In this document: positions 6,837 through 63,698 of the stretch, one piece after another
Layout: each line of letters begins with the position of its first letter
Position numbering within the stretch: position 1 is the first letter of the stretch
Assembly (NCBI GenBank): GCA_963971405.1
Contig: OZ020484.1
Location: 16,988,001-17,052,000, forward strand
Direction: 5' to 3'
Length of the DNA stretch: 64,000 nucleotides
Origin: Psococerastis gibbosa
Lineage: Eukaryota > Arthropoda > Insecta > Psocodea > Psocidae
Translations under genes and position numbers: made by a program
Notes under the pieces: generated by a model
Seen by the model: only the letters and a program-made list of their open reading frames with translations
Database searches by the model: none
What the model was told of the DNA's origin: nothing

Positions 6837-7302
6837 TTTATTTAGTCAATGACGATCTAGTTAAGGTGTAGTATACGTATTATGTAGGCTAAAAGGGCAT
6901 GGAATGAAGTAGTTATGTATGCTATTTTAAACAGTTGAGTTGAAGGTGTTGGTTATCCTGAGTTCTTGACTAGCCCAGGACTGATTTGGAAACCAACTGC
7001 CGAGGATGTTCTGTATAAATGTTTATATGTCCATGGACCATGCCAACTGCAAATCTACTAAGGCGATTATATTTAATCTGGGATTAAAAATTTAAACAAG
7101 ATAATTTTAAAATGGAAAGTAATTATTGCTAAACGCCATACGCAGCGCTGGTCCTAAATTAACTACTTCTCACAACGCCCATAAGTTATAGCATAGCTAG
7201 AGTATTATAAAATTATTAATATAGGGTGACCAGAGTCCAGACAAGAGACGTGAGTCAGCTAGCTAGTTGCTAGTTGCCGAGGCAGATGTATCATTTTCAT
7301 TG

Positions 7303-7592
7303 GGCGCGAAGTCCACTGACCTCGCATTCGATAGTGATCCAGATATTGACGACAATACTGTCTTTAATGTCTGCTACCACGTCAATATCTGGATCACTAT
7401 CAAAGGGGGGTATTCCATATACGTACAACGTCAACGAAAAATTGAAAAATGACGTTTTAGCAGACATTAAAGACATACTAAAAATTCTGCTACCACGTCA
7501 ATTTACGTCATTTTGACGTCATTTTTCAATTTTTCGTTGACGTTGTACGTATGTGGAATGGGCACCAAATGCGAAGTCGATTGACTATGCGC
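7303..7592. mobile_element. Nested foldback MITE (Harbinger-like), two elements
   Basis: The outer arms are GGCGCGAAGTCCACTGAC at the left and its diverged complement ending near 7592. An inner stem pairs GATAGTGATCCAGATATTGA with its complement by 7403. A second element (about 7405-7565) has arms CATATACGTACAACGTCAACG and complement. The family 17-mer, intact or diverged, occurs at 7367-7383 (minus), 7451-7467 (plus, diverged) and about 7484-7499 (minus). Confidence 0.72.
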
Positions 7593-7914: not shown

Positions 7915-10900
7915 ATGTTGAAGTCATACTTATCTTTACAGCAAGGGTTAATGGCTCCAAATCAATTTATGCAAAATTTGAAAAACCAGCGGACACTGTC
8001 ATTATCGTTGTCTAAGCACCAGGACATTGATCATACCTTTAGTGGCTCTGTCAATTACTTGAATATTGATAACGGAGAAAACAGATAGTAAGTAGCATTG
8101 CTTTATCCTAGGGTAGGGTTCGTTGTAAACGGAGCGCTAGCCAACAGAACAGTTAGGGGACAAGATTAGACAGATTTTAAGCGAGATTCGCATCAAAATT
8201 AATTTGCAGACCGTAACTATTAAAAGTATAAATGCCATTAAATGATACTAGTGAATAGCCCTTTTGTGATTTCATGTAATTTCAAAAAGAATTAAAAATA
8301 TAAAACGATTTCTCAGAGAAGTTTCCCATAAGCTTAAGTTATATTCAATTTTACTGACTTCATTTCGATCGAAAAGAAGGCTGAGCTTGGATGGCATTCG
8401 CTACGGAATCCTATTCAGTCGACGTGGGTGGTCCAGTCTACAGTATCATGTGGTCGATTCTGACCAAATGAGTGACGTCTGATCCAACCTATTCAAGTTC
8501 TACTTTAATTTGAATTGAAATAAGTCCCAAGTCTGCTTTCATGTGGCAATGGGAGCCTGCAGAGGAAGTACATACACTTCCCATTATAATTTTAATGTAG
8601 TCCTTTGACCTACTTTTTTTTGTAAAAAAGTCATATGGAGTTATCAGTTATCAGTTATATTCATGCCATTTTCAAGCTAGCTAGGGCTAGCTTCTGGGCG
8701 TCGTCATCTATTTCTGTCGTCTAAAACAAAATAATAGTAAATAAATAAAGAACACAAGTTAAGAACACATGGAGGCGTCGTGACCCATTGTGTGGCCTTC
8801 ATAAAAGATAGTATTTTACCTAGGTACCTTCGTTAAAGCACTTAGGTGCCCATTCCATTGACCGGCTAGGGCTATTTCCAACAACGGTGACGTGGTAGCA
8901 GACATTCAAGACTTAGGTGGCGTTTCCACAGACCTCGCATTGCAGAATTGACGGAAATGTTTATTTTCCTCTATGCCATAGTTAAAATTGATCAATGATC
9001 ATACAGTAAAATCACAAACAAATAAATAATAAATAATGTACGCAGTACCACATAGAACTCTGTACCGAAAGAGTGTTGTCCCTCACGCGGTACGCGTCAC
9101 AGTAAAGTGCAGTGCGTAACTTAACTAACTCTGTATTGTAACTCTGTTAATGTTGAAATGACCCTTTGGTTGTAAATATATAAAATATATATTAAAAAAT
9201 GGCGTCATGGGATATGTTAAGTACGAACATTTTAATAGATTTCTATAAAAAGAAAAATTCTAATTTCCGTCAATGTCATTTGCATTCTGCAATGCGAGGT
9301 CGGTGGAAACGCAACCATGTCTTGAATGTCTGCTACCACGTCACCGTTGTTGGAAATAGCCCGAGCCGGTCAATGGAATGGGCGCCTTACTAAGATGCCA
9401 TCTCTGACTCGTTCCCGAACTTGGTTGAGTCATGCATATACGCTATTATATGTGGTTAATGCTTGTAGCCGTGTAGGTTGACATCGCGGCCGTTTACCAT
9501 TTTGCCGACGGCCAAAAATTCACGTGGAAATAGTAAGTACTTATAGTGTCAGAAAATACATGCGGTTGTTGACATTGGGCAAGGTTCAATGGAGCACTAT
9601 ACAAGTTAGCCTCCGTCCATAAAAACCCATTCAAATAATAAGATACCACCATCTGTTTCAGTTTATTATCAGGATGCTCTGATGGCAGCATATCTATTCA
9701 CGATCTCTTTAACTTAACCAAAACTACTTACTTTACTGCTAAGTGCGTGTCCAAAGTAAGTGCCAAGACTAAATATGCCCACGAGAAAAGTGTTGAATGC
9801 GTTACGTGGTATCCTACAGACAATGCGTTGTTTGTCAGTAGTGGTGGAGATAAGAAGCTCAAATTATGGGACACAAACCTCTTAAAGCCAATAGATATTG
9901 TCGTTGCAAAAGGGAGAATTAACCATCATCAATGCTCGCCAACCTCTGGGTCACTCATTGCCGGTGAGTTATAGTACCTAGTACCATTATAATATTTTTG
10001 AATGGGGGCATTAGCATTACTTCATATCCATCCGAGAAATACCAGTAATGGTCTTAATAATGTCAGCCCGAGTTTCGTACCAGTTGGGGGCACATGTTTT
10101 TCTTCGGCTAAGTCCCGGTACACGCGGACGATTCTTGCAGTTCCTTGTAACCATATAGGACTAGTAAATGATTTCTTGCCAATTTTGGCCGATCGCACCA
10201 AAGATTTTCCCCAAGACACCTGGGATCATAGAAATCTCCTGAAGTAGACTCTGTGTGTTTGTACCTACCATTCACCAAGCCCTATCCCTTCAATGATGAA
10301 AGACATCGGCAAATCGCGATTGCGACAATCGTCCGTGTGTAGGTACGTTCCGTTGCGAAGCGGAATAAATTTTATTGTTAATTTTTTTTTTAAAAAAAAG
10401 TTACATTATGCGGTTTTTCGAAATGAAATACGCGCATCCAAATGAAGACACCATAAACCGCTACTGGGAGGCCTGGTTGAACAACTACGGACGGGCATCG
10501 GAGTATTATAAAGTATTACAAAATGTGCTAAAACAGGCTTGTCAAATACGTAATAAACCGTACAACCATTCATTCGAACGCACCATCGACGACAACGCTA
10601 GCTTGTACGGTACGTTACATGACATAGATGGTAGTATGCTACATAAAAACATCAGACTCATTAACTGCGGTACAGCACTTTACATGGGGGACAGCAGCTT
10701 AGACCTGTGGGTATTTTGATTCTGATGATATTCTGTAATATGTTATTTTCAGTGGGAAGCCATACAAATGTTGTGGAGCTGGTGGATCTAAGGACAGGTC
10801 ATGGCTCGCATGAATTACGTGGTCACAAAAGTTCTGTTATGGCGGTGGCTTGGTCTCCCCTGGAGGGGTCGCTGCTGGTGTCAGCAGGAATGGATGGTGA

Positions 10901-11405: not shown

Positions 11406-12828
11406 AATAAGAAATAACAAACCTTTTTGTTTTGTTTACCGCATACATTTATTTACTTTTCATACTAGCTATTTATACTGACATCGTACAAGAGACAATA
11501 AGTGAGTAGACGTACCTCAAGTTTCAATAGGTGATTTTATTATACAATATATTTATGTACCTGAAAATGCAGTACTATTAATAGGAATATATAGAGCTCC
11601 CGAAATTTCGGATTAGAATGCAATACCCTATTTAGACGTATAGAATGTCCAACTACATATTAATCTAATAACCTGACAGTGAAAAAAATAACTAATGATT
11701 TGTCCACTAGTAGCATGCAAAATTTGAACAAAATGGGGCGACCCACACCCTAAATTGCTTAGAGATCATCTCTTAGAGAAAGTCATTGCGCGTTATAAGC
11801 TAGGAATGAGCATACACCTGATATAGCGATTTTTCGATGATGTTTTGATTTTGACTTGGGTCAAATTTTAGCTCCCCCTGCCCACAGCTGCATACGCCCA
11901 TGAAATGAGCTAAACACCCCAGTCTTACTTTTAGCGACATGACATGACACGCAGCAAAAAAAATTTGAATGATGTGTGTTAGTGCTTAGGCGTTAAAAAC
12001 ATTTTAATAGATTGTTTATAAAACATTTTTCATCCATTAAACAGATCGGTGAAGGTCGATCTTACTTCGGATCTCCTACTATTATTAGGTTTTATTAAAA
12101 ACAATAAGTGTACGAAGAAAACAAATACAAACAAAATTTCAAAAAACAAATGCAAACAAATTTCAAAAATTTGGCGCATACGTGTCAATAGAAGAAAGTG
12201 ATCAATAGTAGAAAAAAACAAGTGGAATGTAGTGTATCAATAAAAAATTAAAATGTCCGTCAATACCACATTTACTATTGACTATTGACGTAGGTGGAAT
12301 ATGTGCCTTGTTATTAGGCGGCCATTCCACATACGTACAACGTCAATGAAAATTATGAAATTGAAGGATATTTCAATTTCTCATTGATGGGGGCCATTCC
12401 ATATGTTTCTAAAAAAATTGACAATTTTCAATTGAAGCGTATGCGCCAAATTTTTGAAATTTGTTTGCATTTGTTTCTTGAAATTGTTTTTGTTTTCTTC
12501 GTCGCCTTATTATTTAAACCTTATTATAATTTTTATACTGAAATGCTTTCTTTTTAGAGAAATCAATTAAAATAGTTGTACTTGTCATATCCCATGACGC
12601 CATTTCTTAATTTTAGATTGTTTCATTGTTTGTGATTTTACTCTATGATCAATTGATCATTGATCAATTTTAACAATGGCATAGAGTAAAATTGAAATGT
12701 CCTTCAATTTCATAATTTTCATTGACGTTGTACGTATGTGGAATGGGGGCCTTAGGATGTGGGTATTTTATATGTTCAATTAGTGATATGCTGAAATTAT
12801 CATTGTTTTTGACGCGTCTGTCTCTTGC
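11406..12828. other. Convergent intergenic region, ERCC8 (+) / OGFOD3 (-)
   Basis: No gene is seen. It contains the 3' flanks of both genes, AT-rich unassigned sequence (11500-12300) and a palindromic element at 12317-12751. Part of 12050-12310 looks like a decayed relative of that element (ATTGACGTAGGTGGAATATG). Confidence 0.6.
12317..12751. mobile_element. Foldback MITE with TTA target duplication
   Basis: The arms GGCGGCCATTCCACATACGT and its complement at 12732-12751 extend for about 50 bp. TTA flanks both sides (12314-12316 and 12752-12754). The core (TGATCAATTGATCATTGATC, CATATCCCATGACGCCATTT) is the core found in elements with different ends at 8916, 28265 and 63158, so ends and core appear to have been exchanged. 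Confidence 0.78.
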
Positions 12829-15268
12829 CTACATTTCCATAGGGTGCATTGTTGGGTCAGATATACTCAAACGTGAATCGCAGGTGAATGCTATGGTAAG
12901 CGCCAAGCGATAGCCTTTCGTTACTCGTTCCACTCTGTGTGGATTTTCCGCTCCAGAAGTAAATATTAATACACGTCCTCGTAAAGGTTCAACTACAGTT
13001 GTAGAGTTATCACGCTCAATGAACAGAAAACGTCCCCCTTCAAAATCAGTTCCATAGTCACTTAAATACAGGAGAGCGGTATAGTGGAATGACTCATATG
13101 TGTCCTGAAACAGAAGAGGTTTTTAGTTCTAAATTCTCCACGGTGGTCGCACCATTTCCGACTTTCAATATTTGTGTACCGTGCCGAGCCAATCTTTCGG
13201 GGGGAAGTACACTAGCTTAATACTTAGGCGCAAATTCCACCGACCTCGTTTTGTACCGTGGGCGTGACATTGACGTGGTAGCAGACATTAAAGACAGTCT
13301 AAAAAGGTCTGCTACCACGTCAATGTCACCCTCACAGTACAAAACGAGGTCGGTGGAATTTGCGCCTTAAACATGGTGGCAAGCAGTACGTGAATAAAAT
13401 ATCTAAGAGTCTTCTGAATATTAAAATTGATATGATGATATGTGTGGTGAAGACTGAGGCTAAGGCTAAGTTGACGGTTACCAAATGATAAATGGTGTGC
13501 CCGACGCACACTGACGCTGAGGAATTATCATTGGAGCAAATGGAGCTGGCGTTTCAAGGGTGCGGTCAGCTTCAAACCAGTTTCAGAAATCTTATGAAGT
13601 AGATTCTGTGGTTTGGCGCTGATTCCACCAACGTCAACAGTGATATTAAATGTTTTTTGACGTGGTAGCAGACATTTTTAGTATGGCTAAAACTGTCTAA
13701 AAATGTCTGCTACCACGTCAAAAACCATTTAATATCACTATTGACGTTGCTGGAATCAGCGCCATATACATACATCAACCCAATTGCTACACTGACAAAT
13801 CTCCGAGCGATCGTCCATGTGGCCTAAGGCGGCTATTCCACCGACAAAATTGCTTCACTAATCGATGTGGCGACGTGGTAGCAGACATCATTAATAAGTC
13901 TCTGCCATATTTTAAGGAGACTATTATGTAGATACTTAACTTATCTATTATAAATTAAGTTATAATATGGTAGAGACTTATTAATGATGTCTGCTACCAC
14001 GTCGGCACATCGATTAGTGAAGCAAATTTGTCGGTGGAATAGCCGCCTAATAATTAATTAAATAATTTGATCATATTTTATTTAAAGCTTTCCTATATGA
14101 TGGGCCAATTTTAGAAGAATTGAACTCATTTTATAGGCTACAAGTATGAAACCTATTAATGCAACACACTTTTTTTGTGGTGTCACTGTGGAATACTTAC
14201 TTTGTCAATATGACGATGCCAATACTCATCATGTATTATTATTGGAGGTTCAGCAGTGAGATTCGAAAAAAATGTGGGGAGCGTCAAGTGAAGTTTGGTT
14301 GAGTCTAGCAGGAACTGTGCAGCTACAATGTGCTGTATTTTTGTACGAACGGTTCTAAAAGGAAAATCATATAACTTAAATGAAAATAGCGCACGCATCT
14401 GCATGAACCGGTAGTTACCTAACATATTATTTTATGTAATATATGCATGCAAGTTCCAGACCTCTATGAGGACATTTTTGATAATTGATTACCAAGCAGT
14501 AGCATAGAAAAAGTACTAATAACAGCAGTACTGACCAGAGATTACGCGCTGGACCCGATATAAGACTGTTTCTATCTAACGAATAGCCATTTCCTCAAAA
14601 TAAGCAGACAATATATATTATATATGCAATACCGGTACACAGTACATACGGGTTTCTAAATAATGTGCATAATAACAATGACGTTTCTTACTTATATGTA
14701 TTAAAGTCTTCGGGTTTAATCAGTTTCCAAATATCAGACGTTTTGTAGATGTTAATGAATTTTCCACCGTATGTGACCGCGCCCGAATGTAGGTCGAGAA
14801 TAGCAGCGCTTCCCGCAGCACTTCCTTGTCCAAGGCCGCCTTTAGCAATCCTTAGTAAAGCTGCTACTTCATGTTGTGTGACAACTTTATCGTAAACTCC
14901 ACGCCCACACTTTCTTGGGAAACAACCTGGAGATAAAGCGCTATTACTTTAAAATAATAGCGGAAATAAAGATATTACCATGCTGATTGTTGAAGAACTT
15001 GTCGAATATCGACAGCATAGATCGGTGCAGATGCAGACCATGTATTAAAATTATAAAAAAACAATTCATGCAACTTACTTGGATAGCTGGAGATCTCTAT
15101 TTGAAAGCTTCTTGAGCATTCTAGCAGTGATGTTTTTTGAGGATATATTGTACCCTTTGAAGCAAAAATGCTTTCCTTGGGCTTATTGCCGTAGAAGTAT
15201 ACAATTACACACAGCGAAACACAGATAACTGCTCTGACAAACTGTCGCTGCTTCGGGAATGTAGGCAT
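12829..15268 (-). CDS. OGFOD3: OGFOD3-like 2-oxoglutarate/Fe(II) oxygenase, membrane-anchored (complete)
   Basis: Four exons join in frame on the minus strand: 15268-15079, 14926-14692, 14354-14201 and 13104-12829 (TAG), giving 284 residues against about 319 in human OGFOD3. A basic N-terminus and one hydrophobic segment (AVICVSLCVIVYFYG, about residues 13-27) indicate a type II membrane protein. Family signatures: RKCGRGV, ILDLHSGAV, a region ending HDEYWHRHIDK that supplies the HxD iron ligands, FHYTALLYLSDY, GGRFLFIE, TSGAENPHRVE with the distal His, and GYRLALTIAF with the 2-oxoglutarate Arg. The substrate of this family is not established to my knowledge. Intron 3 (13105-14200) carries three MITEs. 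Convergent with ERCC8. Confidence 0.93.
13227..13366. mobile_element. Foldback MITE 1 in OGFOD3 intron 3
   Basis: A nearly perfect palindrome of 140 bp with arms GGCGCAAATTCCACCGACCT, flanked by TTA on both sides (13224-13226, 13367-13369). The 17-mer is at 13272-13288, and an inverted copy lies at about 13306-13322. Confidence 0.88.
13510..13823. repeat. Decayed MITE family D copy, interrupted
   Basis: It contains GGAGCAAATGGAGCTGGCG, AGAAATCTTATGAAGTAG and CGATCGTCCATGTGG, matching family D members at 10109, 16240 and 21425. The foldback MITE at 13615 splits it. Confidence 0.5.
13615..13763. mobile_element. Foldback MITE 2 in OGFOD3 intron 3
   Basis: The arms GGCGCTGATTCCACCAACGT and complement end at 13763. 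The 17-mer lies at 13659-13675 and inverted near 13704-13720. The target duplication is not clear. It is inserted into an older family D element. Confidence 0.85.
13828..14047. mobile_element. Foldback MITE 3 in OGFOD3 intron 3 (TAA target duplication)
   Basis: The arms GGCGGCTATTCCACCGACAA and complement enclose the 17-mer at 13872-13888 and inverted at 13987-14003. TAA flanks both ends (13825-13827, 14048-14050). The core ATTATAAATTAAGTTATAAT is shared with the element at 24961, which has different subterminal sequence and no 17-mer. Confidence 0.9.
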
Positions 15269-15350
15269 AGGTCCATATTTTCTGGAATAGTAGAAATAAC
15301 AGTTACGAAACGTTGGGTTAACTTAAAATAAAATATATAGCGCTTAACCA

Positions 15351-15592
15351 TAAGCTAAGTATTGCCGATAGCAGTGAAACATGGGGGAAAAGAAGATGAA
15401 GGGGCAAAGGAAGCGTTTCCATGTTGTAGGGTTAGGGTGGGCCACCACAGCTCAATCAAGCCCTGACTGTTGAATTGTTGTTTTTAATTTGCCGTTACTT
15501 TCTTTTTTTAATGCTGGAACCCTACAACGTAGAAACGCTTCTTTTGCCGTTTCGTCATACGTTACACCGCTAAAGGCAATACTAAGCATATG
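15351..15592. mobile_element. Palindromic MITE family E
   Basis: The left arm has GCTAAGTATTGCCGATAGCAG, GGAAGCGTTTCC and TTGTAGGGTT. The right arm has AACCCTACAACGTAGAAACG and GGCAATACTAAGCATATGG as diverged complement. A one-armed relative lies at 24672-24800. Confidence 0.72.
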
Positions 15593-15718
15593 GCTTGGAG
15601 CCATCAACTATATTTTATTATCGTTGGTTCCAACATAAAAAATAAAACAACGGCGAATGAAAACAAATGAACAGAATACTGAATCTTAATTTTAAATAAA
15701 TAAATAAAATATTGAATT

Positions 15719-15907
15719 TTTGTTCTATTACTAAGTCAACCTAGCGGTGTTAGGGCTGCCCTCTTACACTCAACCAGGAAGGCCCAGGACCGCCTGCTTT
15801 ACATGCCCTCAGAAGCATGGCCAGAAAACTGAAAATGTAATAAGTGTGGGACTCCAATTAACCTTTCGGGTGAAAGCCGCAGCCTGTACCATTACTCTAC
15901 ATGTCAT
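15719..15907 (-). mobile_element. tRNA-derived SINE (family A), inverted and diverged
   Basis: The reverse complement gives TAGAGTAATGGTACAGGCT, TTCACCCGAAAGGTTAATTGG, CATGTAAAGCAGGCGGTCC, GAGGGCAGCCCTAACACCGC and TTGACTTAGTAATAGAAC, in the order of the family. The B box is decayed. Confidence 0.78.
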
Positions 15908-17194
15908 GACTGATTTTGACTGTAATAAGCTTATGGCTTAAACGAGGAAACTACCGCTGAATCGTGGATTGACTGAGCTCCGGATGCTCAGTTCACAACT
16001 TGTTTGTGACAGAATAAAGCACATGCAGCCACAATTTTATTGCTCTATGATGAAACCCCAGTGACATGTGTTTGGAGTCATATCAAATCAAATTATAAAA
16101 CGGTTTTCCACCACTGTCATTGCGAACTGTATTTTCATCACCAGTAATAAATTTGTCTTCAAAGCTTCTGAATAATGCCTTATTGTCTCAGGCAAAAATC
16201 CCTAATCTATACCTCCTGGAGAAGATACTATGGTTGTGTAAATCGAGTCTACTTCAGAAGATTTCTATGATCTGACGTGTCTACACTCTAAGGGAAAACA
16301 GTACACTTTCGTGGAGTCGGCTTCACGCCAGCTTCAGAAATCGTCAAGAAAACTTCTGCTAATAGTCTGTGTGTACCGAGCCTGAATGGATTTATAATCG
16401 TGCCTTCGATTATTTGTCCTTAGGACAAATATAAGGCAAAATGAATATAGGAGGGGATTATCCCATCCCCTTTACTTATGTTGCCTACCTACTTGGCTAC
16501 TCAAGTCTTGAATGTATAGCATTATTGCAGACACAGTTTACGTACAGGTTCACTTCTTTTTCTTTCAATTCCTCAGCTGCCTTATTTTTTGCATTTCTTT
16601 TAATTGCTTGTGGCATAATTGACCAAATAGGAGCGTAAAATGTAATGAGTTTTTAGAACTTTATTTACAAATAAATCTTATCAGCAGTCAGTGAGTGATG
16701 AGTCGCCATCGGATCGGCCATTGTCCCATTGTTGCCAACCAACCAAAGAATCTAAAATATTAGGACATTATAGGTTTATTAATAAGGTTTTACTGGTTTT
16801 ACTTCTTTTACGCAAAAAACCAATCAGGTCATTTCAATCGTGAATTCAACCAATGAAAACGTTGTGTTTTGACGTCTTTCTAGTTTTTGTTTCTTATTTC
16901 TATACAAAATAGTTACATTCGTCCATTGCTTTATCGTCTATGGTCTATTCACCTAATGGAGTTCTTGCGCAGGTAAAACAAAGATGGCGGGCTGTCGGAA
17001 ATGGAGGTGGTACCCCTGATTCTCGGACATCACCCCTCATTTTAACATGGAGTGTATAGGCTTTCCAATGAAATTTATTTTATTTTAAGAAATTTTCCCT
17101 TTTCAACGGCAAATTAGTGCTATTTATATGTTCCTTCAATACTTGCGTAGTTTATATTTTTCCTCTCAAAATCCGATTCTATCTAGTATCAAGC

Positions 17195-17530
17195 CATTTC
17201 ATCACGGGGGGGGGGGGGGGGGGGAAGGAGGTTGAACTCCCCCTTGGCTGCGGCCATGATCTCAATCGACTGTCCGATTGGATCAGGTAAATCTTTTGTT
17301 GGCCCACTAGGATCCACTAAATGTTTTGAACATATATACAAGGCTGTTCCCAGGTTATGATTTCGGGGGGGGGGGGGGGGGGGTGTCCAAACATTTTTTT
17401 ACGTATTTTATTAATGAATTAATGAATAAATTCTTCAAACCATACAGGTTTACCTGCAGAAATTTATTTCGGGGGATGGGGGGGGGGGGAGTGCGGACCC
17501 CATGGACCACCCCCTGGGCACGGCCATGCA
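17195..17530. repeat. G-run segments of the GCGTAGCCA repeat family, fragments
   Basis: Three long G runs lie within about 300 bp. Each G-run block ends in a C-rich flank such as CCCCCTTGGCTGCGGCCATG or CCACCCCCTGGGCACGGCCATG, echoing the TGGCTACGC ends of the element at 21777. Long G runs may vary in length or be assembly artefacts. Confidence 0.45.
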
Positions 17531-18650
17531 TATATATGTGTATTTTGTAACTTCAAATATTGTTTACTTCGTTCTACCACAAATATGCAACCACCACATG
17601 CATTTCTCAAGTTTTTCCAGTGGCTTGGGGAACGATATAATTCGTACCTCTCTCGTATGTGGTCTGTCCTGGTATCGGCTATCACTATTACACAAGCCAT
17701 AGCAGCAATGCTTAATATATAACGCTAGAAATATGAATAATAACAACTAAAAACTTTAAAAATCAATAGCGCTCTATGCACTTTATATCCTCCAATGGCC
17801 GAACAGCTGATTTTATTACACTATTTTCGCAATTACGCATGCGCTGTTAGCTCCGCCCTCTTACTGTGACATCACTGCGCAAGAACTCTATTCACCATTC
17901 GAAACAATTTGTAAACAATAACAATATGGACTATGGAGTATGGAATTACAGTAGAAACAGTACCGTTAGTTAGTTGAGAATCAATTAAAGAGATGAAAAA
18001 ACCTAACAATAACTCCAGTTTATTAGCAAATGGGTAAGACGAAGTTTTGTTTAGGAAGTCTGCTAGAAGGTGAATTTGAATTTGACTGAAGCTAAGCAGC
18101 CCAAGCTCCATACCTACACTACCTTTTGCACCGGGTCAGAGACTCGGCCACTCAGAGATATAGTGCATTGCTATGCCTATATTATATATGTTACATTAGG
18201 CTTAACAATGGGTCATAGCTTTATGGCGACTAGCTTAGGGAAACGTAGGCTCATAGGTTACCATAGGTAACGAAGGGTCGGAAGGGAACAGTGAACAGTG
18301 GATATTGCTGCGGATATCTATCCAATATTCCAATTTTGAAATTAAAATTAAAATACTTTATTTATATAGGCTAAGTGTACAATTAATAATAAGGTAGTTT
18401 TACATTTGTGAACTTCAAAGATGCGAATCTATGTGTGCTGCCCCTAAAAACAGGAACATTTTCTTGATATAGGTGTTAAATATATAAAAGAAGTAAATGG
18501 TTTTGGAAATAAAAACAATATAGCCTATATTGTTAAAGATTCAATAAAGCTCTAAAGCTATGTATCACGCAGTACACTAAGTCGTATGAAATGGAAGGTG
18601 AACGCCACATTTGCTAACTAATTTATATTTCAACCAAGGATTGTTGCATG

Positions 18651-20276
18651 AAGTAGACTAAAGCTTTGTGATGGTCAAAATTTTCGATTTCGAGTTTCAG
18701 TGGATTTACATGTTTTGAGGTCTCAGGAAACCGAAAAAGTGCGTGTCTGTCTGTTCGTCAATTTGTGGGCAAGCTACTCGGTGGATTTTGATGAAATTTG
18801 GCATGTGTGTGGCATGCGTTCACAAAAATCATAGCTCAGGACCAGTTTATTTATTTTGGGAGATTTTATCTCCCAAAAGCTAAAAATGTCTGCCGTCCCC
18901 GTAGGTTAGGTAACGTAAATATATTTAAAAATCCTTAAAACTCCCTTCTATCTAGTGTACGGCAGGCAATGTATTGGAGCGTGAATTTTATAGAATTTTT
19001 TCAAAAAAATTTTTTTCCCACAAAACCAAATACTTTTTTGGGAAAGCAACCTGTTCGGTTTTGTTACTCTTTTTAACACCTAAAACATACCAGAATGTAG
19101 AAATCATTGATAAAAAGGTTCCGCAGAAAAATTATTTTTCATAAAAATTGACTTATATTTATTTTTATTTTTTTACCCCCAGAAGGAAACTATCAAGGGT
19201 GAAGCGACCCACCGCTTTTTGTTAACATTAATAACGACTATGTGAATTTAAAAGAAATCGTTGGAGCCATAGAATAAATATTTACTTATTTATACATAAT
19301 GTATATAGATATAGCATTGGTCATAAATCCTGGAACAAACACGTTTATGGCTTTTTATACAAAAGTAGTTCACATATCAAACTGTCCATGATATTGTAGT
19401 ATCGTGGGTAGGTACCACACACTTTCACCAAAAAACTTTGAAATTGGATCAGTGGTTTCAAGAGGATCAGTTGAAGACGGAAATGTCGTTGGCCATAATG
19501 GTTGGAACAAACCTATCACAACTCTTGCTCACGAATTTTCGCCTTCTTAAATAATAATTTAGTATGTAATTGTAAACATTGAGCTTTTAAAACTTGATGG
19601 AGGACATGACATGACATGACCATGGACATGAGAGAAAGAATTCTGGCCCCCTTCAAGTAGGGGATGAAGCCTATTGACATTGGGTGGCAGGTACAGGTCT
19701 TCAGCTGATCCTCTTGAAACAACTGATCCGATTTCAAAGTTTTTTGGTGACAGTGTGTAGTACCTACCTACCCACGATACTACAATGTCAAGTACAGTTT
19801 GATATGTGAACTAATTTTGTATAAAAAGCCATAAACGTGTTTGTTCAAGGATTTATGACCAATACTGCATATATATATGTAATATAGAATATTTATATAG
19901 AGCCGTTTATGAAAAAAAATTTTTTTCTCTTTTTTAGTTTTTTCGAAAATAAAACAACCCAAAATTGAGTTACCCCAAAATATTTTTTTTCTTTTTTAAA
20001 ATTACACCATAGCACTAAGCTTCCGCCATCAGCTTTCTTGCTGCCCAATACAAAAAGCCCTAAATAAAAAAATGGTCCCGAGGTATGATTTTTGTAAACC
20101 TACATGCCAAATTTCATCAAAATCGACCGAGTAGTTTGCCCGGAAATCGATGAACAGACAGAGCGACAGACATTTCGTAAAAAACTCTTGGGTTCCTTGG
20201 ACCTCAAAACGTGTAAATCCGTTGAAATCTCGGTGTCGAAAATTTTGACTATCACAAAGCTTTCCTTATACTACGT
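18651..20276. repeat. Long inverted repeat (about 1.6-kb foldback), no ORF
   Basis: The outer left arm (AAAGCTTTGTGATGGTCAAA, GGATTTACATGTTTTGAGGTC, GATGAAATTTGGCATG) is matched by complements near 20105-20276. Inner arms at 19312-19475 and 19696-19868 are also complementary (CAAACACGTTTATGGCTTTT, AAAAACTTTGAAATTGGATCAG). Pairing is imperfect throughout. No transposase is visible, so it is a foldback-type or non-autonomous DNA element. Confidence 0.8.
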
Positions 20277-20501
20277 ATAAATTGGAAAGTCAAAAACGAA
20301 TACTTGGCTCCGGATATAAGTTCCATGGTTGAACATGCTGGGTTCAAACAAAAATCGTGAAAACGACCGGGATTGTGCTATGTGTGAATTAGTAAGTGGG
20401 TATTAACTGGATAAATGAGGTAGGAAAAAGTAATCCTGTCTTGTTTCCACAGTAGTTCCAGTAGCTTAATTACCTAATAATTGTATTAATATTGATTCAG
20501 G

Positions 20502-23500
20502 ATGGAATGGTGGCTCTCATTCCTTGGGATTTTAGTTGGCACATTGGTGACCAGATTTCACAAGGTCACGGAGCCTGACCACGTGTGTTGGGACGAGACG
20601 CACTTCGGTAAGATGGCTAGCTGGTACATCAACAGGACATTTTTCTTTGACGTACATCCTCCCCTGGGAAAAATGCTAATCGCCTTGTCTGGGTACCTCA
20701 CTGGTTACGATGGAGAATTTCCATTTGACAAACCCGGCGACAAGTACGAAGATGTTAACTATTTCGGAATGCGTATTGTAAGTTCGAAAGGTTCAGTTAA
20801 AATAAAGTTGGAAAAGTTCATGTTAAAATCATTTGTTTAATTACTTACGTTTAAATTAATAATCAAAGGGCCTTGATATGCTGCATTTCATGGAAGTAAT
20901 TATCGTTAGAAGAACGTCTAATGTTCTTAATGTTTTGGAATATGTAATAACTTGATACTATAAATTATTAATCTATTCGTCTGTTCGCTGGCATTATAAT
21001 TTTTGTGCTTTTAAGGGAAGAAAATATTCAGCAGTAGAAAAAGCATTTTCTGTTTTTGCGTTATTAACGCTGAGTAGTTTTGTTATATGACGAGATAGTA
21101 GAGTTGTCAACATTTTTCTCGTCAAATAACAGTATATTACCGTACATCAAAGTTAGACTCGAAAATTATAGTACAATGAAAAACAAAGTATGCATGAATG
21201 CGTCACTGAACGCCATTTTGATCAAGGTCAAATTAAGAGCATAATTATAAGCACCGTATAAAATCGGCACTAGTAAAGCTGAAACTTGAATCATCTCTTT
21301 TTTTCAGTTTTGTACGTTTCTTGGAGCTTGTATCGTTCCCTTTTCATACCTCACAGTATGGGAATTGACCAAATCAATAACCGCGGCGTTTTTAGCTGGG
21401 CTATTTATCTTATGTGGTAAGTATAAGGCCAAGTATACACGGGCGATCGCGACGCCGGGGACGCGCTGGGAACTTTGTCATTGAAGCAAATGGCTAGTTC
21501 GTAGTTGGAAAACCATAAAGCCAAGCTTAGAAGATTTCAGAGACTGGCGTGAAGCCGATCCCATACAGTTAAACGGCTTTCCCCTCGACACGCTTCAACG
21601 TTAGAAATCTTTCGAAGTTAATTCAGAAAGAAAGCCTATCACCAGACCATTTGTTCCCATGATAAATTTCTCAATATGTCACAGGCTGCGAACCTCCGTG
21701 TGTACCGGGCTTAATTTGTGTTTTTTAGGTTCTTCATTCCGCTGAATGAGAACTATGATATTGCCTTGAATACAGCGGCGTAGCCAGAATTTTTTTAGGG
21801 GGGGGGGGTGCACAGTTTTCAGGTTCTTGAAAAGAAATAGGCCTGAAATTGTGGAGTTTTACACATTTTGATGTATATATACGTCTTGTTTAGGTTTTAC
21901 AGCCGAAGAATAGTAGACCTACTGCAAGAAAGGAAGGCCCGGGGGTCTCCTTCGGGGGAATTATTCTGAAAAATAATAGGCCCAAAATAGTGGAAATTAC
22001 GCGATTTGAAAGCAGTTATGTTCATATTTTACATGTATAGAATATTACAGCTAACAAGGGGGGCTCGGGGTCTACCGCGGGGAATGTTTTTTAAAAGATA
22101 GGCCTGAAATAGTTTGTTGGCAAAAAAATTTGATTTTGCAGACGATAACTTTATTAACAAAACTGGAAACAGGGGTACCGGGGTCTCCCCGGGGAATTAA
22201 AAAAAAATATCTGAAAAATTTGCTGTTTTTTTTTTTTTGGGTGGGGGGGGGGGGTCCGGACCCAGCTGACCCCCCTTTGGCTACGCAATTGCTTGAATAA
22301 AGGTTAGCTGTCAGTGAAATCAAGTCTACAGGTTGTTCTGCGAGGTTTTTATTATTTCTGTCTATATTGGTAGAGATTTTAGTATCCTAATGGAGAAGTA
22401 CTCATTTGGTTTCATGCGTCCGTCAACGTTTTTTGTGAGAATTACATGAAAGTAATTAAGGAATTCACGAGGCGGAAAGCCAGAACATATTTAGCAATTT
22501 TCTTATCTTTTCAGATGTTGGAATGATAACTCTAAATCAGTACATCCTTCTCGATCCAATTCTTCTCTTTTTCGTGACTGGCTCTGTGCTCGGAATGGTT
22601 AAAGTACGAGCTCTTCAGGAATTGGCGTTTCAACCAGTGTGGTGGTTTTGGCTTGTCTGGACTGGAATCATGCTGGCTGGATCGGTTAGCGTAAAATTTG
22701 TCGGGCTCTTCGTTGTTCTTCTTGCCGGCTTGTACACCATTGCTGAGCTGTGGGAGCTATTGGGTGATATGGCTAAACCAGTGGTGGGTATATCTATTTC
22801 TCTTTACAAAAACGAGTGTAATCCTTTTTTTATTGCAACAATAGAAGCAAGGTTTTTTACTTTACTTAACTTAATTTAACTCTCTGCCTCTCTAAACAGT
22901 CAATAATTTAGACAAAACGTTTATTTCCATGAAATTAAATGGAACTTTTGTATTTGTCCAGTATCTATATGCAATGCTGATGTAGTAGCTCTTGCCTTCT
23001 ACTGTGCACTGCTATTTGCAAGAGGCTGTCTACAGTTTTATTAGTATTTAGTCAAAATTCAGGTTTTTTTGTGTTCCAGTCTGTAACATTAAAGCACTTC
23101 TGTGCTCGTGCACTATGTCTCATCATTCTTCCGTGCCTGTTGTACATGGCTTTCTTCTACATGCACTTGGTTGTGCTGGACCGCAGTGGAAGTGGAGACG
23201 GGTTCTATTCGTCTGCTTTCCAGTCGACGCTCAAAGGAAATTCACTTCATTATGCATCTATGCCTGCACAATTGGCCTACGGAGCAATCATCACTTTAAA
23301 AAATTCTAGGACGGGTGGAGGGTATCTACACTCACATTGGCATTTGTATCCCGAAGGTGTTGGAGCTAGGCAACAGCAGGTATATTGAAGAGTTTCTATT
23401 TTCGGAGGTATTTTGGGTTACTTTCTAGTCCAAAAGAGAACCAAGATACTTTCAGAACAATGATTAATTCAAATAAATCTCACCCGATGCCAAGGAACTG

Positions 23501-26500
23501 GCAAATTTGCTCTTAACGTCGTCAAGTGTGACCAGATTATAGTGTCTTGATTCTGAAGGCCTGGAAAGTGTCCGAACTAATCGGAAAGTACCAGAACTGC
23601 AAAATCATTTGCTATCTTTATCGATTCCGACAAATATTAGACCTTGTGGTCAAAATTTTGATAGCAAAGGAGCCTTTATTAATAGTATTGCCTATTCCGC
23701 ATTGGATTCTTTTTTAGTTTAGTAAAACAGTCGGCTTTAATTATGAACGTAGTATTGATAGATCTTAATATTAACAAGAAGAGCTCTTCCTAACTCAAGA
23801 AACCGTCGGCCACATCTTAAAGATTTGTCAGAACCTACCTACATTATAAGTAAATACTCCAAAACCATCTCTTTTTGCCTGATTGACTGTAGTTACTGTT
23901 AGTTTATCGCTAGTGGCATTAATTGTTTTTAGATTACAACATATACGCATAAGGACGATAATAATAAGTGGCTGATCAAATACTACGATAAAGATGAAAT
24001 TGGCGACGGCGTAGAATTCGTAAAAAATGGAGACTTAATTCGCCTTGAACACCAAACTACTAGAAGAAATCTGCATTCGCATCGTGAGCCGGCACCCCTG
24101 TCTACCAAACAACTGCAAGTTACTGGATACGGCGAAGTATGTGTCATTTCAAGACTCGGTACTAAGCACTCGAATTTTTAATTGCACCGCCAATTGCTAG
24201 GCTGGATGTTGGTTAGGTTGTTGGTGTTAGACGTTTATGATTTCCAAATATTTGTTAATTAAAGAAGGCCCGGGTATTGCTGAAGAAATTAATTATTTCC
24301 TCGTTCTACTGATTAAAAGTGGTCTTATGAAAAATTTGTAAAGAAAAACAAGCTTTCTAAAAAAGCAGATCATTTACCCGACTGATTTGCCGCTAACTAT
24401 TCTGTAAAATCAGTTTAATGCAATTTTCACGTTATTCTCAAGCAATAATTTTTTGCAATGAAAATTTATTTTTATTTGTTTTTCCTAAGAGCATTATTAT
24501 TTTTTAACTTTCTGGCCATGTTGCGAGTGCGAGGATTTAATAAATTTCGCCAAGAATGGCCGGACTTGCTTACAAAATATTTGGAAATTATCTGCCTCAT
24601 CGGGGTAGCAAAGTATAGCTCCATTGAATCTTGATATGCAACGATAATAAAATAGAATATAAGGCGCCAAATCATATGCTAAGTATTGCCGATGGTGGTG
24701 AAACTTGGCAGCCCTGCGATGGGGGAAATGACGGAAGAAGCGTTTCCACTTGCCATAAAAACCAAATAGCGGCAAATGAATAATAGAACAGGCCCAATAA
24801 GTTTCTGCGCATTTGGTTCGCAATCTAACTAGTTTGTTTTTACTGTATTAGGCTTATGGTGAGTACCACCCACTTACACGAGAATCGGTTGCTTATCCAG
24901 CCCGCCTGATATGAAGTTTACGTTTTGATATTCTCCAATATTGCCAAAAATCATACATATGGCGGCTATTCCACTTGTCAATATTCCGTCATTTGTGCAT
25001 CAATAATTGATGAGATTTATGTTTTAATTAGACTTACTGTATGTAGATACTTTACTTATTTATTATAAATTAAGTTATAATATGGTAGAGACTGATTATT
25101 GATTCATAAATTACGGAATATTGACAAGTGGAATAGCCGCCTAAACTGTACATATATATATATATATACATATATGCATTATATTGTATCATATAACATA
25201 TTAACCAATATTGACGCCAATGGCTGTGTGGCGATATTATTAGGATATAACTGTGTGGAGTCGAACGTTTAAAGTGTTGGATTTCTGCGGCCAAACAAAA
25301 AAGATTCAATATATTTTATTTTATTACTGTGCGTACTTACAACATAGACGAACGGAAGTGGACTGGTCAACTTGGGAAAAAATTCCTTTTTTTGAACGGA
25401 GCATTGCATTTTCTTACTATAAACATGGCCGGGATTATGGAGAGTTTAAATTAATCCGAAAATATAGTATACGTACAGTACATACGTTGAGTGTAAGAGA
25501 GGGCTTTATTGCCCTAACTCCGCTAGGTTGGCTTAGTAATGAAAAAAGTCAATATTTATTTATTTTATATACATTGTGTGCCTATTACTGAACTACATTT
25601 CAGAATGGAACTGGCGATGCTAATGATGTTTGGAAAGTCGTAATTGAAAAAGGTCACGATGGTGAAATTGTGGAGACGGTCAAGTCTAAGCTACGTTTGG
25701 TGCATTTTCTCCAACAATGTGTTCTTACTGCTTCTTCTAAGCAGCTTCCCAAATGGGCCTACGAACAACAGGAAGTCTCTTGCAATCCAAACCTTAGAGA
25801 TCCCAATGCCCTGTGGAATGTTGAATATAACTATTTTCCAACACGTAAGTGCATTATATGATCAGTTTGGCGTAAGTAGCCATTAGGTGCCTACCATTTG
25901 GCTACCTAACAAGCAAGCATATGTTTTAACCATAAAACTGAACGACCCCTGTTTGTATTGAACACAACCAACACGTATTTTACGCCATGACTCCGTTGGC
26001 TTTAAACGTTACCCTACGGTACAGTACTATCGAAAACCAAAGGCTTTCATGGCCGGAGTCTGATCATGGAACAGGTGAATCTGGATCGTGATGGGCTCTG
26101 AGATTAAATGCTTGAAGTCGAAGTACTATTTTAGTATCATTGAATATGTCGACTGTAGCTTTTCAGATCGATCATGGCCACTTTACCACATTTACATCTA
26201 TTAAAAGAGCCTTTCAGCTAATTTAAGAAATTCATAAATATGTAAGCACCAAAAAGTAATAGTATTTTTTTTTTTTCAGTGCCTACGGTTAGCTTTACGG
26301 TACATGCCCCAGGTTTTTTTGAACGCTTCCTTGAAAGTCACGCAGTTATGTTACAAGGTAATGCTGGATTGAAGCCCAAGGAGGGTGAAGTGACCTCACG
26401 GCCTTGGCAGTGGCCTCTGAATTATCGGGTAACGTAAAAATTGTTAAATGAGTGGGATTTAAAAAGAATTTCAGATATTGGTTATTACTTATCAAGTTAA

Positions 26501-28716
26501 ACAATGTTTGTTAGAGAATACTGGGGCCTACGTCAATGAGCTAGGAAACTATTGTGTTACTATTTGTCATTCCCATTTGTGGTTCTTCAAGGGCAAACAT
26601 GACAAAAGAAAACGGCAAAACGAAATTGAGCTTTATTTTCCTGAACAATAAGAGACTGCAGAATATAATTTTTAACTCTAACCAGTATCACCTCATACAG
26701 AGCGTATGTTTTGGTTGTATTCAATATCTGGTAGGAAAGTTTAAATTATTATAAGGACCGAGGCACGTTATTTAAAATAAATAATGGATTTTCTTCTTTT
26801 TTGAACTGTACTGTCTACGTCTGGGGCCTCCAGATAATTTTGAAGTGAATTTTGCTTTGCTACGTAATATTCCTGAGCGTTTCTGTGTGGCTGTAGGCCT
26901 AGTATTGTACAGTAATCATTATTGTCCTTTTTAGGCTATATTTACTGCCTTATTATTTTCCATATATTTCTGAAAGTGAAATAGGTAATAAGAGAAATTC
27001 AATTTTTCCAGGGCCAGTTCTTCTCCGGCAATATGTACAAAATCTACCTCCTTGGAAACCCAATAGTTTGGTGGGGAAATTTATTATTCTTACCATTGGC
27101 GCTACTTTTGCTGGCATACGACGCCATTATAGAAAAAAGGCGGATTGCAGAGATTGACCCACTTAATGGTTAGTGATACGAACTACTCCGGGACTGGCTG
27201 TAATACTGTTGCGCATGATTACTGATGGACAATACTATAGATCTGTTTCCTATAGAAATGCAACATGACGGTTATGCATGCTGCGTATGTAGGGATCGCC
27301 TGATAATTTGGCTTAGTCTCTGACTCAGGCCTACGATTTAAAATCACAGATAGAACAATGGTACCTTGAAGTAGTTTTGCATTTATTTTATTGGTTAATG
27401 TGACTCCGCCTTTACCCAACAAACCTTATGTAGGTACTAGGCGTGGGACCTATTTTTAGGACTATAAAATTATACACAATACAGTTTCTGAAATGTTATG
27501 ATTACAGAGTCACGCAGAAGGACAACTCAAGGCTGTCGATGGTTATTTCTTGGCTGGATTCTTCATTACCTGCCATTTTGGGCTATGGGCCGTATTCTTT
27601 ATTTCCATCATTATTTTCCGGCGTTGTACTTCAGTTCGATGCTTTCAGGAGTAACCTCAGCATATTTATTGAAGTGCCTTCCGTATATTTTACCGGACGC
27701 CTTGGCATCAACAGCAAGACACACTGCCCTAGCATTTCTGGTGTCCGTCTCGTGCTACAGGTGAATATCTCAAACCTTATGCCTGGGAGAGAGGGGACAT
27801 TCGCTCCCGAAAAGGATATTTTTGGAATATGTGGAGCCTCCAACCACGTCTTGTTCGACCAATAATCAGAGCACGCCTTGGTCGCTTCCAAGTAACAAAT
27901 TCCCATAGAAATTTATTTAACTACGTAGAATGCTGGGTACCATAACATCCCTTACGGGGCACCACTTACCATAAGCGAACTATCAGAAATAAAAGAACCA
28001 ACGTAAAAAATATCGAAGTCTCAAACATTGCAGCATAGCAAAATAGGTAACGGATAGACTGAAATGCATTTTTTTTTGTAAATAGCCTTGTTGGAAATGA
28101 AACGAAAATACGAGTTATGATGATGATGATTTCATGAAATTATGGTCAAAGCTTTACAATGTGACACTAAATGTGAAGAAGATATTGTCCTAAGGCGGGG
28201 ATTCCACCGACCGGCTAGGGCTAAATACAAAAACGGTGACGTGGTAGCAGACATTCAAGACTTAGGCGGGGTTTCCACCGACCTCGCATTGCAAAATGCA
28301 AATGACATTGACGGAAATGTTCGTTTTTCTTTTTATAGAAATCTATTAAAATGTTTGTAATTAACATATCCCATGACGCCATTTTTTAATTTTAGTTAGT
28401 TTGTTTGTGATTTTACTCTATGATCATTGATCAATTTTAACTATGGCATAGAGTAAAACAAACATTTCCGTCAATGTCATTTGCATTCTGCAATGCGAGA
28501 TCGGTGGAAACCCCGCCTAAGTCTTGAATGTCTGCTACCACGTCACCGTATTTGTATTTAGCCCTAGCTGGTCGGTGGAATCCCCGCTTAACATTGCAAT
28601 TAATTTTCAGCTTTTATCTATTCTCTCCTCTGGCTTATGGCATCACTAATCTGAATACAAATGAGTCAACATCTGTAATGCACTCTTTACGATGGCTCGA
28701 TACGTGGGAATTTTAA
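20502..28716 (+). CDS. POMT2: POMT2, protein O-mannosyltransferase 2
   Basis: Ten exons join in frame: 20502-20777, 21308-21416, 22515-22783, 23080-23379, 23933-24136, 25604-25844, 26280-26428, 27012-27168, 27508-27760 and 28611-28716 (TAA), giving 687 residues against 750 in human. The PMT catalytic loop is intact ([24 protein letters not shown]), followed by [12 protein letters not shown]. The MIR region contains [32 protein letters not shown] and VTGYG. Multi-span helices follow, then [17 protein letters not shown] and a C-terminus [10 protein letters not shown] almost identical to vertebrates. Family knowledge: with POMT1 it transfers mannose from dolichyl-phosphate-mannose to Ser/Thr of alpha-dystroglycan and other proteins in the ER. 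An acceptor-like TTGATTCAG directly precedes the ATG and an in-frame stop lies just upstream, so an N-terminal exon of about 50 codons may be missing from this model. Confidence 0.95.
21425..21712. repeat. MITE family D copy in POMT2 intron 2
   Basis: It starts GGCCAAGTATACACGGGCGATCGCGACG and ends CCGTGTGTACCGGGCTTAA, inverted versions of each other with divergence. The body shares GAAGCAAATGGCTAG and AGAAGATTTCAGAGACTGGCG with other members. Confidence 0.58.
21777..22286. mobile_element. G-run element with GGCGTAGCCA termini, POMT2 intron 2
   Basis: The left end GGCGTAGCCAGAATTTTTTT and right end TTTGGCTACGC are inverted. Just inside each end are long G runs. Internally, three imperfect repeats carry GGGGTCT followed by a CCGGGG-like motif and AATAGGCC(T/C)(G/A)AAAT. 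The same internal motif occurs at about 57310-57370. There is no coding capacity. The superfamily is undetermined. Confidence 0.65.
24672..24800 (+). repeat. MITE family E, partial copy in POMT2 intron 5
   Basis: It contains ATGCTAAGTATTGCCGATGG, GGGGGAAATGACGGAAGAAGCG and GCGGCAAATGAA, matching one arm of the element at 15351 and its right flank. Confidence 0.6.
24961..25141. mobile_element. Foldback MITE in POMT2 intron 5
   Basis: The arms GGCGGCTATTCCACTTGTCA and complement are about 50 bp with subterminal ATTCCGTCATTTGTGCATCA. TAA follows the right end; the left flank is ATAT. It has the ends of the element at 60307 but the ATTATAAATTAAGTTATAAT core of the element at 13828. Confidence 0.85.
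25486..25562 (+). mobile_element. SINE family A, 3' fragment in POMT2 intron 5
   Basis: Only the tail part is present: GAGTGTAAGAGAGGGCTTTATTGCCCTAACTCCGCTAGG and TTGGCTTAGTAAT, then TATTTATTTATTTTA. The pol III boxes are missing, as expected for a 5'-truncated retroposed copy. It ends about 40 bp before exon 6. Confidence 0.8.
27928..28058 (+). repeat. Dispersed repeat C, copy 1 (POMT2 intron 9)
   Basis: It shares ACCATAAGCGAACTATCAGA, AAAAAATATCGAAGTCT and ACATTGCAGCATAGCA with 47726-47850. Family unknown. Confidence 0.65.
28194..28588. mobile_element. Composite foldback MITE ending 22 bp before POMT2 exon 10
   Basis: The outer arms GGCGGGGATTCCACCGACCG and complement are flanked by TAA (28191-28193, 28589-28591). 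The 17-mer is at 28238-28254 and inverted at 28528-28544. A second palindrome (28265-28517, arms GGCGGGGTTTCCACCGACCT) sits at the exact centre, between GACTTA and TAAGTC. The same outer-inner arrangement occurs at 8845-9386. Confidence 0.9.
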
Positions 28717-60306: not shown

Positions 60307-60832
60307 GGCGGCTATTCCACATGTCAATTTTTCTTCAATAATTGATGAGATTTTTTCTTTACTCTATGTCAGTGGTTCTCAAACTGTGGGCCACAGCGGC
60401 CTGTCAGGGAGGCCATGGGACTTCGAGAGGAAAAATTTATGAATTTTAGGAAAGATGACATTCCAACATTGGTAGCTAAGGCTCTGAAAATATTGATGTT
60501 TGACGTCATACCTATGAGAACGCTTTTTCTCAACGCTTCTTATGTTAAAGTTGAAGGGCCGAAACAAACTAAAAGACCTCGACGAGGAGCTGAGAGTGGC
60601 TCGTTCGCAAAAGCCCAACAAAAAAATTATCAGCCACATTTGTCGAATTAAAAAAGGAGCAATGTATTTTGATATTGATTTCTTTTTCCGTGTAAACTGG
60701 GTAGGGGGACACGGACAATTGTCTTCCATATATGTGGGCCACGGCCGTAAAAGTTTGAGAACCATTGCTCTATGTCATCTCCTCAATTATTGATGCACAA
60801 ATGACGGAATATTGACAAGTGGAATAGCCGCC
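60307..60832. mobile_element. Harbinger-like foldback MITE, split by a hAT MITE
   Basis: The ends GGCGGCTATTCCACATGTCA and GACAAGTGGAATAGCCGCC are inverted and flanked by TAA (60304-60306, 60833-60835). Without the insertion it would be 120 bp. Its ends match the element at 24961. Confidence 0.88.
60370..60767. mobile_element. hAT-type MITE with 8-bp target duplication
   Basis: The terminal repeats CAGTGGTTCTCAAACT and AGTTTGAGAACCATTG are classic hAT-type ends. The 8-bp duplication CTCTATGT flanks it exactly (60362-60369, 60768-60775). A 78-codon ORF inside (60415-60651) has no recognisable transposase motif and is probably fortuitous. Confidence 0.9.
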
Positions 60833-62775: not shown

Positions 62776-63698
62776 TTATGTTATAGGCACCGTCCCGTTA
62801 CATTTGTGACTGCTTTTAGCGGTCTTTGATATTTTATAATTTTTGAATTCGGAATGTGAAATAGGAAAATCGTCAGCCAAGTCAATAGTCTGAAAGAAAA
62901 TTGAGGTAAGAGAGACACTATATAATGCATAAATACATTAAATAAGCTTACAGGAATGCTATTGAAGGTTTCATTGAAAATTCTATGAACCCTTAGGGAC
63001 AATAATTATTGGAATTTAAATTATGACTCGTTGCTGTGTAACAATTTGAATTTACACATCTCATCTTACATTATGAATGATCCTAACCAAATTGTTGAAT
63101 ATCGTAGCCCTGTATGTTACTTGTACAGATACTTCACTGAGGTGTATACATTCATAAGGCGGGGTTTCCACCGACCTCTCATTGCAGAATGCAAAGACAT
63201 TGGCGTTGTAGCAGACATTGAAGACTTCGGCGGATATTCCACCGACCTCTCATTGCAGAATACAAATGACATTGACAGAAATTTTTGTTTTACTCTATGC
63301 CATAGTTAAAATTGATCAATGATCAGAGTAAAATCACAAACAAACTAAAATTAATGGAATATGTTAAGTACAAACATTTTAATAGATTTCTATAAAAAGA
63401 AAAATTCAAATTTCCGTCAATGTCATTTGCATTCTGCAATGAGAGGTCGGTGGAAACCCCGCCTAATGGTGAGTGAATAAAGAGCGAGATAAAATGGGCT
63501 TGGTAATAACAGGCGGCTTACTGGTTTGTTTTAACTGAAGCACTATTAAACTATTGTACTTACATCAACAGGGACGAACCAGTCCAGGATATCAAGTATT
63601 AGGGAGCAGAGGACAACCACCAGAAGCCAAGGCAATACTCCAGCAGACATGTAACGGGCCAGCTGCGAAGCAAGGGACTGTCGGGGATGAATTGCAAC
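62776..63698 (-). CDS. C-terminal exons of an unidentified membrane protein (5' end outside window)
   Basis: Exon 63698-63564 (45 codons, both junctions in phase 0) encodes a basic lead RQSLASQLARYM and a membrane helix VLPWLLVVVLCSLILDILDW. After a GTAAGT donor, the exon 62889-62776, with the strong acceptor CAATTTTCTTTCAG, gives a 37-residue polar tail (TIDLADDFPISHSEF, KISKTAKSSHKCNG) and TAA. The tail is Lys/Ser-rich, probably cytosolic. I do not recognise the family. The intron between contains a MITE. Earlier exons must lie right of 64000; a LINE fragment occupies the start of that upstream intron. Confidence 0.6.
63158..63463. mobile_element. Foldback MITE with TAA target duplication
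   Basis: The arms GGCGGGGTTTCCACCGACCT and complement are flanked by TAA (63155-63157, 63464-63466). Near the left end a diverged 17-mer (GGCGTTGTAGCAGACAT) is followed by a second copy of the arm (CGGCGGATATTCCACCGACC), so the left side has a duplicated terminus. The core GATCAATGATC, CAAACAAACTAAAATTAATGG is shared with 12317, 8916 and 28265. Confidence 0.85.

Follow-up and report, generated by a model that had tools for sequence, protein, structure and literature searches.

The window, by which we mean the whole stretch of 64,000 nucleotides analysed here, contains a minus-strand host gene that we take to be OGFOD3 (OGFOD3-like), following the naming in an earlier note on this DNA. Its exon lying 5' of the intron end, in the stretch 12901-13110, gives a match to the 2OG-Fe(II) oxygenase domain of Pfam (PF13640). 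The intron contains three foldback elements, within which a motif scan located the copies of a recurrent 17-base motif (hereafter the 17-mer):

13105..14200, minus strand: intron with the three elements, its bounds placed by eye from the splice consensus (GTAAGT and TTTCAG on the minus strand)
13227..13366, unstranded: foldback element 1, spacer class II, flanks TTA/TTA
13272..13288, plus strand: 17-mer in element 1, exact
13305..13321, minus strand: 17-mer in element 1, 1 mismatch
13615..13763, unstranded: foldback element 2, spacer class III, flanks TTT/ATA (unequal)
13659..13675, plus strand: 17-mer in element 2, exact
13703..13719, minus strand: 17-mer in element 2, exact
13828..14047, unstranded: foldback element 3, spacer class IV, flanks TAA/TAA
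13872..13888, plus strand: 17-mer in element 3, exact
13987..14003, minus strand: 17-mer in element 3, exact

As the earlier note had proposed, these are three intronic foldbacks that carry the 17-mer facing outwards once in each arm, five of the six copies being exact. Their inverted-repeat arms are 64, 68 and 89 nt long in elements 1, 2 and 3 respectively, with a complementarity of 94-96%, and together the elements occupy 509 of the approximately 1,096 bases of the intron as bounded by eye. The two elements that were folded as DNA, elements 1 and 2, gave z-scores of -19.05 and -20.75. The tip sequences given in the earlier note are correct. The outer 30-40 bp of the three elements had been described as differing, which is true of tip positions 5-7 and mainly of the sequence from about position 19 onwards, but GGCG and ATTCCA are common to all three tips. 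The packing of three elements into 820 bp means little, because chance alone would give roughly 4-44 such triples at this density, according to a hand estimate that assumes 13,000-28,000 elements in 409 Mb. Across the window the 17-mer occurs at 14 sites with three or fewer mismatches, 10 of them exact, against a shuffled expectation of 0.09; the figure of about fourteen copies given previously is correct. The further elements of the window are:

7405..7566, unstranded: class III element with the 17-mer variants GACGTTTTAGCAGACAT and GACGTGGTAGCAGAATT, flanks AAA/AAA, inside another palindrome
8845..9386, unstranded: class I two-tip element, flanks TTA/TTA
12317..12751, unstranded: foldback with the same tip and without the 17-mer, flanks TTA/TTA
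24961..25141, unstranded: sibling of element 3 with the same tip and a similar centre, without the 17-mer, flanks TAT/TAA
28194..28588, unstranded: class I two-tip element, flanks TAA/TAA, inner layer 28265-28517
60307..60832, unstranded: element with the same tip and without the 17-mer, flanks TAA/TAA
63158..63463, unstranded: one-sided two-tip element, flanks TAA/TAA, whose left side alone has the outer tip and a 17-mer variant with 2 mismatches

In the region 7281-7580, the further palindrome around the first of these, a class III MITE, includes one exact 17-mer (7367-7383) and is enclosed by weaker inverted ends.

A genome-wide count recovered 26,272 exact 17-mers (13,052 + 13,220) across the 409-Mb assembly and 0 for the reversed control. 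TTCCA, which represents letters of the tip, is found 20-50 nt upstream of the 17-mer in 23,652 matches and 51-81 nt upstream in 1,019, both being counts of pattern matches in which a 17-mer with two upstream TTCCA is counted twice. Among the 100 matches listed, which are from contig 1, the gap between TTCCA and the 17-mer is 30-34 in 97, and the distance from the GG tip to the start of the 17-mer is 43-47 bp in 97 and 44-46 bp in 91; the three exceptions comprise gaps of 48 and 36, which arise from a second upstream TTCCA, and a gap of 41, which reflects a longer arm. Over the same part of contig 1 a tip lies within range for 94 of the 99 17-mers listed. These TTCCA counts and gaps bear out the prediction that the motif sits at a nearly fixed distance from the termini. 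Off-range arms among the fetched loci measure 51-56 bp in L024, L032, L040 and L041; at L019 a single arm measures 31 bp. The distances of 20-21 bp computed in one subtype of class I arise artificially from a TTCCA within its spacer. The class III MITE at L032, L040 and L041 has 10 bp extra before the 17-mer in one arm (56 versus 46 bp), or about one helical turn. The earlier picture of a conserved motif between diverged ends needs amendment to the extent that the ends are not really diverged and the tip is itself a second conserved module. A 19-base extended version of the motif had 0 exact matches in viral contigs, and a literature search that did not use the letters of the motif found no paper describing the 17-mer.

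The sequence between the tip and the 17-mer defines four spacer classes. Class I (spacer GGCTAGGG) accounts for 80 of the 100 matches listed, the remaining 20 falling outside it; class II (CTCGTTTTG) is that of element 1, class III (GTCAAT) that of element 2 and its relatives, and class IV (AATTTGCTTCAC) that of element 3. The similarity between representative spacers of the four classes is at the shuffled level. The same applies to most between-class pairs in a set of 12 hand-picked two-armed elements, in which a small number of II/III and I/III pairs slightly exceed shuffles (for the best, 8 of 200 shuffles were as good) and the left and right spacers within one element agree at 0.82-1.0. 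On contig 1, intermediate spacers connect class III to class II in steps reached by 0 of 500 shuffles, and these two classes share bases past the 17-mer (AAAGACA..TCTAAAAA). Because the intermediates bridge II and III, there are only three independent spacer groups, namely I, II with III, and IV. Element 3, of class IV, has the exact 17-mer in both arms at 44 bp with dissimilar sequence on either side. Common to all classes are the tip, the 17-mer and the distance between them. The concern that all copies might be recent duplicates of one element is answered by the several classes with dissimilar spacers, but II and III do not count as independent.

The dominant class I ends have a compound layout: an outer tip, the spacer, the 17-mer, and then GACTTA with a second tip. 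In almost every class I element read, the inner tips adjoin GACTTA; this hexamer immediately precedes 7,625 of the 8,829 inner-tip matches, and the simplest predicted empty centre of class I has 0 genome matches at three or fewer mismatches. Since the inner tips mostly follow GACTTA and the empty centre is without matches, the two-tip compound appears to be the amplifying unit. In the element at 63158-63463 only the left side has the second layer. The outermost 43 nt on that side show 98% complementarity to the right end, and the junction of the element has 1 exact occurrence in the genome and 258 matches at 2-3 mismatches. The element is possibly a product of arm-to-arm copying or of the use of an inner tip as an end.

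The flank analysis covered 35 elements, four of them without the 17-mer. They remain from 55 rows after removal of 16 inner layers, of one row that overlaps another, and of three closely similar copies of a MITE that travels with a single transposon family. Left and right 3-bp flanks agree in 23 of these elements and differ in 12, against a shuffle mean of 8.6 and a maximum of 18 in 20,000, with TTA or TAA making up 16 of the 23 equal pairs. This corresponds to the 3-bp target duplication, usually TWA, expected of PIF/Harbinger MITEs, and agrees with the earlier expectation of TTA/TAA-type flanks, the duplications being mostly A/T. The elements are likewise short and high-copy, as expected of such MITEs, with lengths of 140-542 bp in the window and the 26,272 exact 17-mers in the genome.

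A search with PF13359 (DDE_Tnp_4), in which 150 of 220 candidates were scored, recovered at least 150 genome matches, many with equal scores and open frames of more than 300 aa. One of these loci, L065, is a two-gene PIF/Harbinger element with TTA on both sides that codes for a MADF protein (PF10545) and a transposase seen as two PF13359 pieces, one above the cut-off and one below. Set against six variants of the MITE tip, its TIR agrees at 11-15 of 19 positions, a resemblance that was noticed post hoc and whose best value of 15 was reached by 18 of 200,000 shuffles; L063, the only other clean TIR seen, has 4-8 positions matching the MITE tips. Compared with each other, the ends of L065 show 24 identical nt, then agreement at 3 of the next 9 positions and at 13 of 14 over positions 34-47. 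They follow the plan of the MITEs, with a tip, a gap and a conserved subterminal module of their own. As a parent L065 was rejected, as it is without the 17-mer and its TIR matches the best tip variants at only 15 of 19 positions. No transposase between ends of the MITE type was found in 28 transposase stretches (4.3-7.6 kb, some interrelated) or in 20 copies from another family, read with about 1.5 kb to either side; the flanks covered were about 1.5-2.5 kb, so that longer elements could escape, and most of the flanks of the 220 candidates lie outside the loci read. MITEs of this group do occur near transposases (the L031 family, L063, L069, L070, L073, L074 and L077), but in none of the stretches read do matching ends enclose a transposase. 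In the PIF/Harbinger family L031-L050 such a MITE lies downstream of the transposase in 20 of 20 copies read; it was rejected as a link to the parent, for it sits within the transposon and is carried along. The proposed PIF/Harbinger affiliation gains a tentative link through the L065 TIR, but an autonomous element with the same ends and the 17-mer was not encountered at the loci read.

Parallels to described systems can be drawn. Tourist-like PIF/Harbinger MITEs, for example mPing, which Ping/Pong mobilise, are like the present elements in their 3-bp duplication (TTA for mPing; PMC2836001), short TIR, lack of a need for coding capacity and high copy number. Two-protein PIF/Harbinger elements exist in this genome; a division of labour between ORF1 and the transposase is described for such a system (PMC2836001). 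Unlike Tourist-like MITEs, the elements found here are near-complete palindromes, have a 17-mer at nearly fixed distance that is common to otherwise dissimilar arms, and in their dominant class display two tips per end, with no autonomous partner found at the loci read. Harbinger3_DR of zebrafish offers a likeness in its subterminal motif, which is 9 bp long and reported to be bound by a Myb-like protein (PMC9710019); the motif is 17 bp here, and its binding by a protein would be by analogy. Galileo of Drosophila, a member of the P superfamily, has TIRs of dynamic structure for which template switching and ectopic exchange have been proposed (PMC4168063), and is similar in this respect; it differs in its 7-8 bp duplications and in the superfamily of its transposase.

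The 17-mer is not indispensable, because a same-tip sibling type without it gives more matches: arm matches number 2,854 for the sibling and 226 for the counterpart that has the 17-mer, approximately 13 times more, as counted with different 30-base patterns at three or fewer mismatches each, the absence of the 17-mer being seen in the copies read (24961, 60307 and L011). Element 3 and the element at 24961 have the tip and much of the centre in common and differ in the arm block between these, in both arms, with the 17-mer present only in element 3. In 25 class I arms, other than those that retrieved the locus and with subtype-diagnostic sites omitted, 19 of the 425 sites of the 17-mer are changed; the corresponding figures are 23 of 600 for the spacer, 5 of 375 for the tip and 4 of 125 for the bases just inside. 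Some of the changes are shared variants, and 6 of the 19 in the 17-mer fall at its last base. Of these parts the tip alone seems better preserved; resident 17-mers degrade as the spacers do, without protection, and therefore any selection on the 17-mer acts on founders and not on resident copies.

We propose, at a probability of about 0.6, that elements 1-3 are non-autonomous PIF/Harbinger-type foldback MITEs with the 17-mer as a putative protein-docking module. Each arm combines a tip (GGYG-NNN-WTTCCAY), placed beside a 3-bp and mostly A/T duplication, with the 17-mer, whose start in most arms lies 43-47 bp inward; what separates the two modules is free to change. A PIF/Harbinger transposase would act (cut) at the tip and an element-encoded Myb/MADF-like partner, or the transposase itself, would bind the 17-mer, such that founders keeping both modules at the right spacing would have amplified. 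Precedents are the subterminal site reported for Harbinger3_DR (PMC9710019) and the division of labour described between ORF1 and the transposase (PMC2836001). What we observed, and what this proposal builds on, is the structure of the elements, the distance between the modules, the copy number, the dissimilarity of the spacers, the length of the duplication and a TIR that resembles the one of a two-gene Harbinger element; which protein binds, that it requires the 17-mer and that the elements are mobilised in trans are our inferences. A docking site is suggested because the 17-mer keeps its distance from the tip although the sequence between them has changed. If the 17-mer is a binding site, the thousands of natural copies with changed spacers constitute a ready test of the base and spacing needs of PIF/Harbinger elements.

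The main rival is shared descent with arms changing in step, whereby all classes would come from one palindromic element in which the 17-mer and the core merely survived without function, and the arms either drifted together or underwent symmetric replacement through recombination or foldback gap repair. We regard this as possible, if on balance doubtful. The chain of intermediates joining spacer classes II and III strengthens it a little; their common bases beyond the 17-mer, the partition of element 3 and its sibling at 24961 into shared tip and centre and differing arm blocks, the spacer-like decay of resident 17-mers and the flourishing of the same-tip type without the motif are also in its favour. 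Shared descent alone, however, would not predict the conserved spacing across dissimilar spacers, and the exact copies in both arms of element 3, at 44 bp amid dissimilar sequence, argue against it. That the 17-mer instead serves a host factor or a hairpin RNA, in a regulatory or small-RNA role of the foldback unconnected with transposition, seems to us very improbable: the very strong hairpins of the two elements folded (z of about -19 and -21) and the presence of three elements within one intron are consistent with it, but the window has no Rfam family at the gathering threshold, resident 17-mers are unprotected, and the distance to the transposon tip would be left unexplained.

With regard to the dominant two-tip class, the regular start of the inner tips directly behind GACTTA, seen in almost every class I element read, could point to an independent MITE that inserted into the centre of a second one and is carried along, an origin compatible with the docking-module reading. 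We consider it rather unlikely, given that the simplest empty centre is without matches at three or fewer mismatches, that a free inner family is rare or absent, since most inner-tip matches follow GACTTA, and that the inner flanks are mostly GACTTA/TAAGTC with no equal 3-bp duplication. A still more tentative idea, to which we give little weight, is that new MITE lineages might be founded by alteration of one arm block between tip and 17-mer that is then copied to the other arm by foldback repair; the element at 63158-63463 would then be a caught intermediate, and the two-tip class would have had its second layer added likewise. If true, the spacer would turn over while both putative protein sites and their distance stay. 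Symmetric arm changes such as these bear on the founding of palindromic MITEs, which to our knowledge is poorly understood. Within the two-tip class, the element at 8845-9386 is longer than the other class I elements (542 versus 371-395 bp), its extra sequence lying near 9050-9190.
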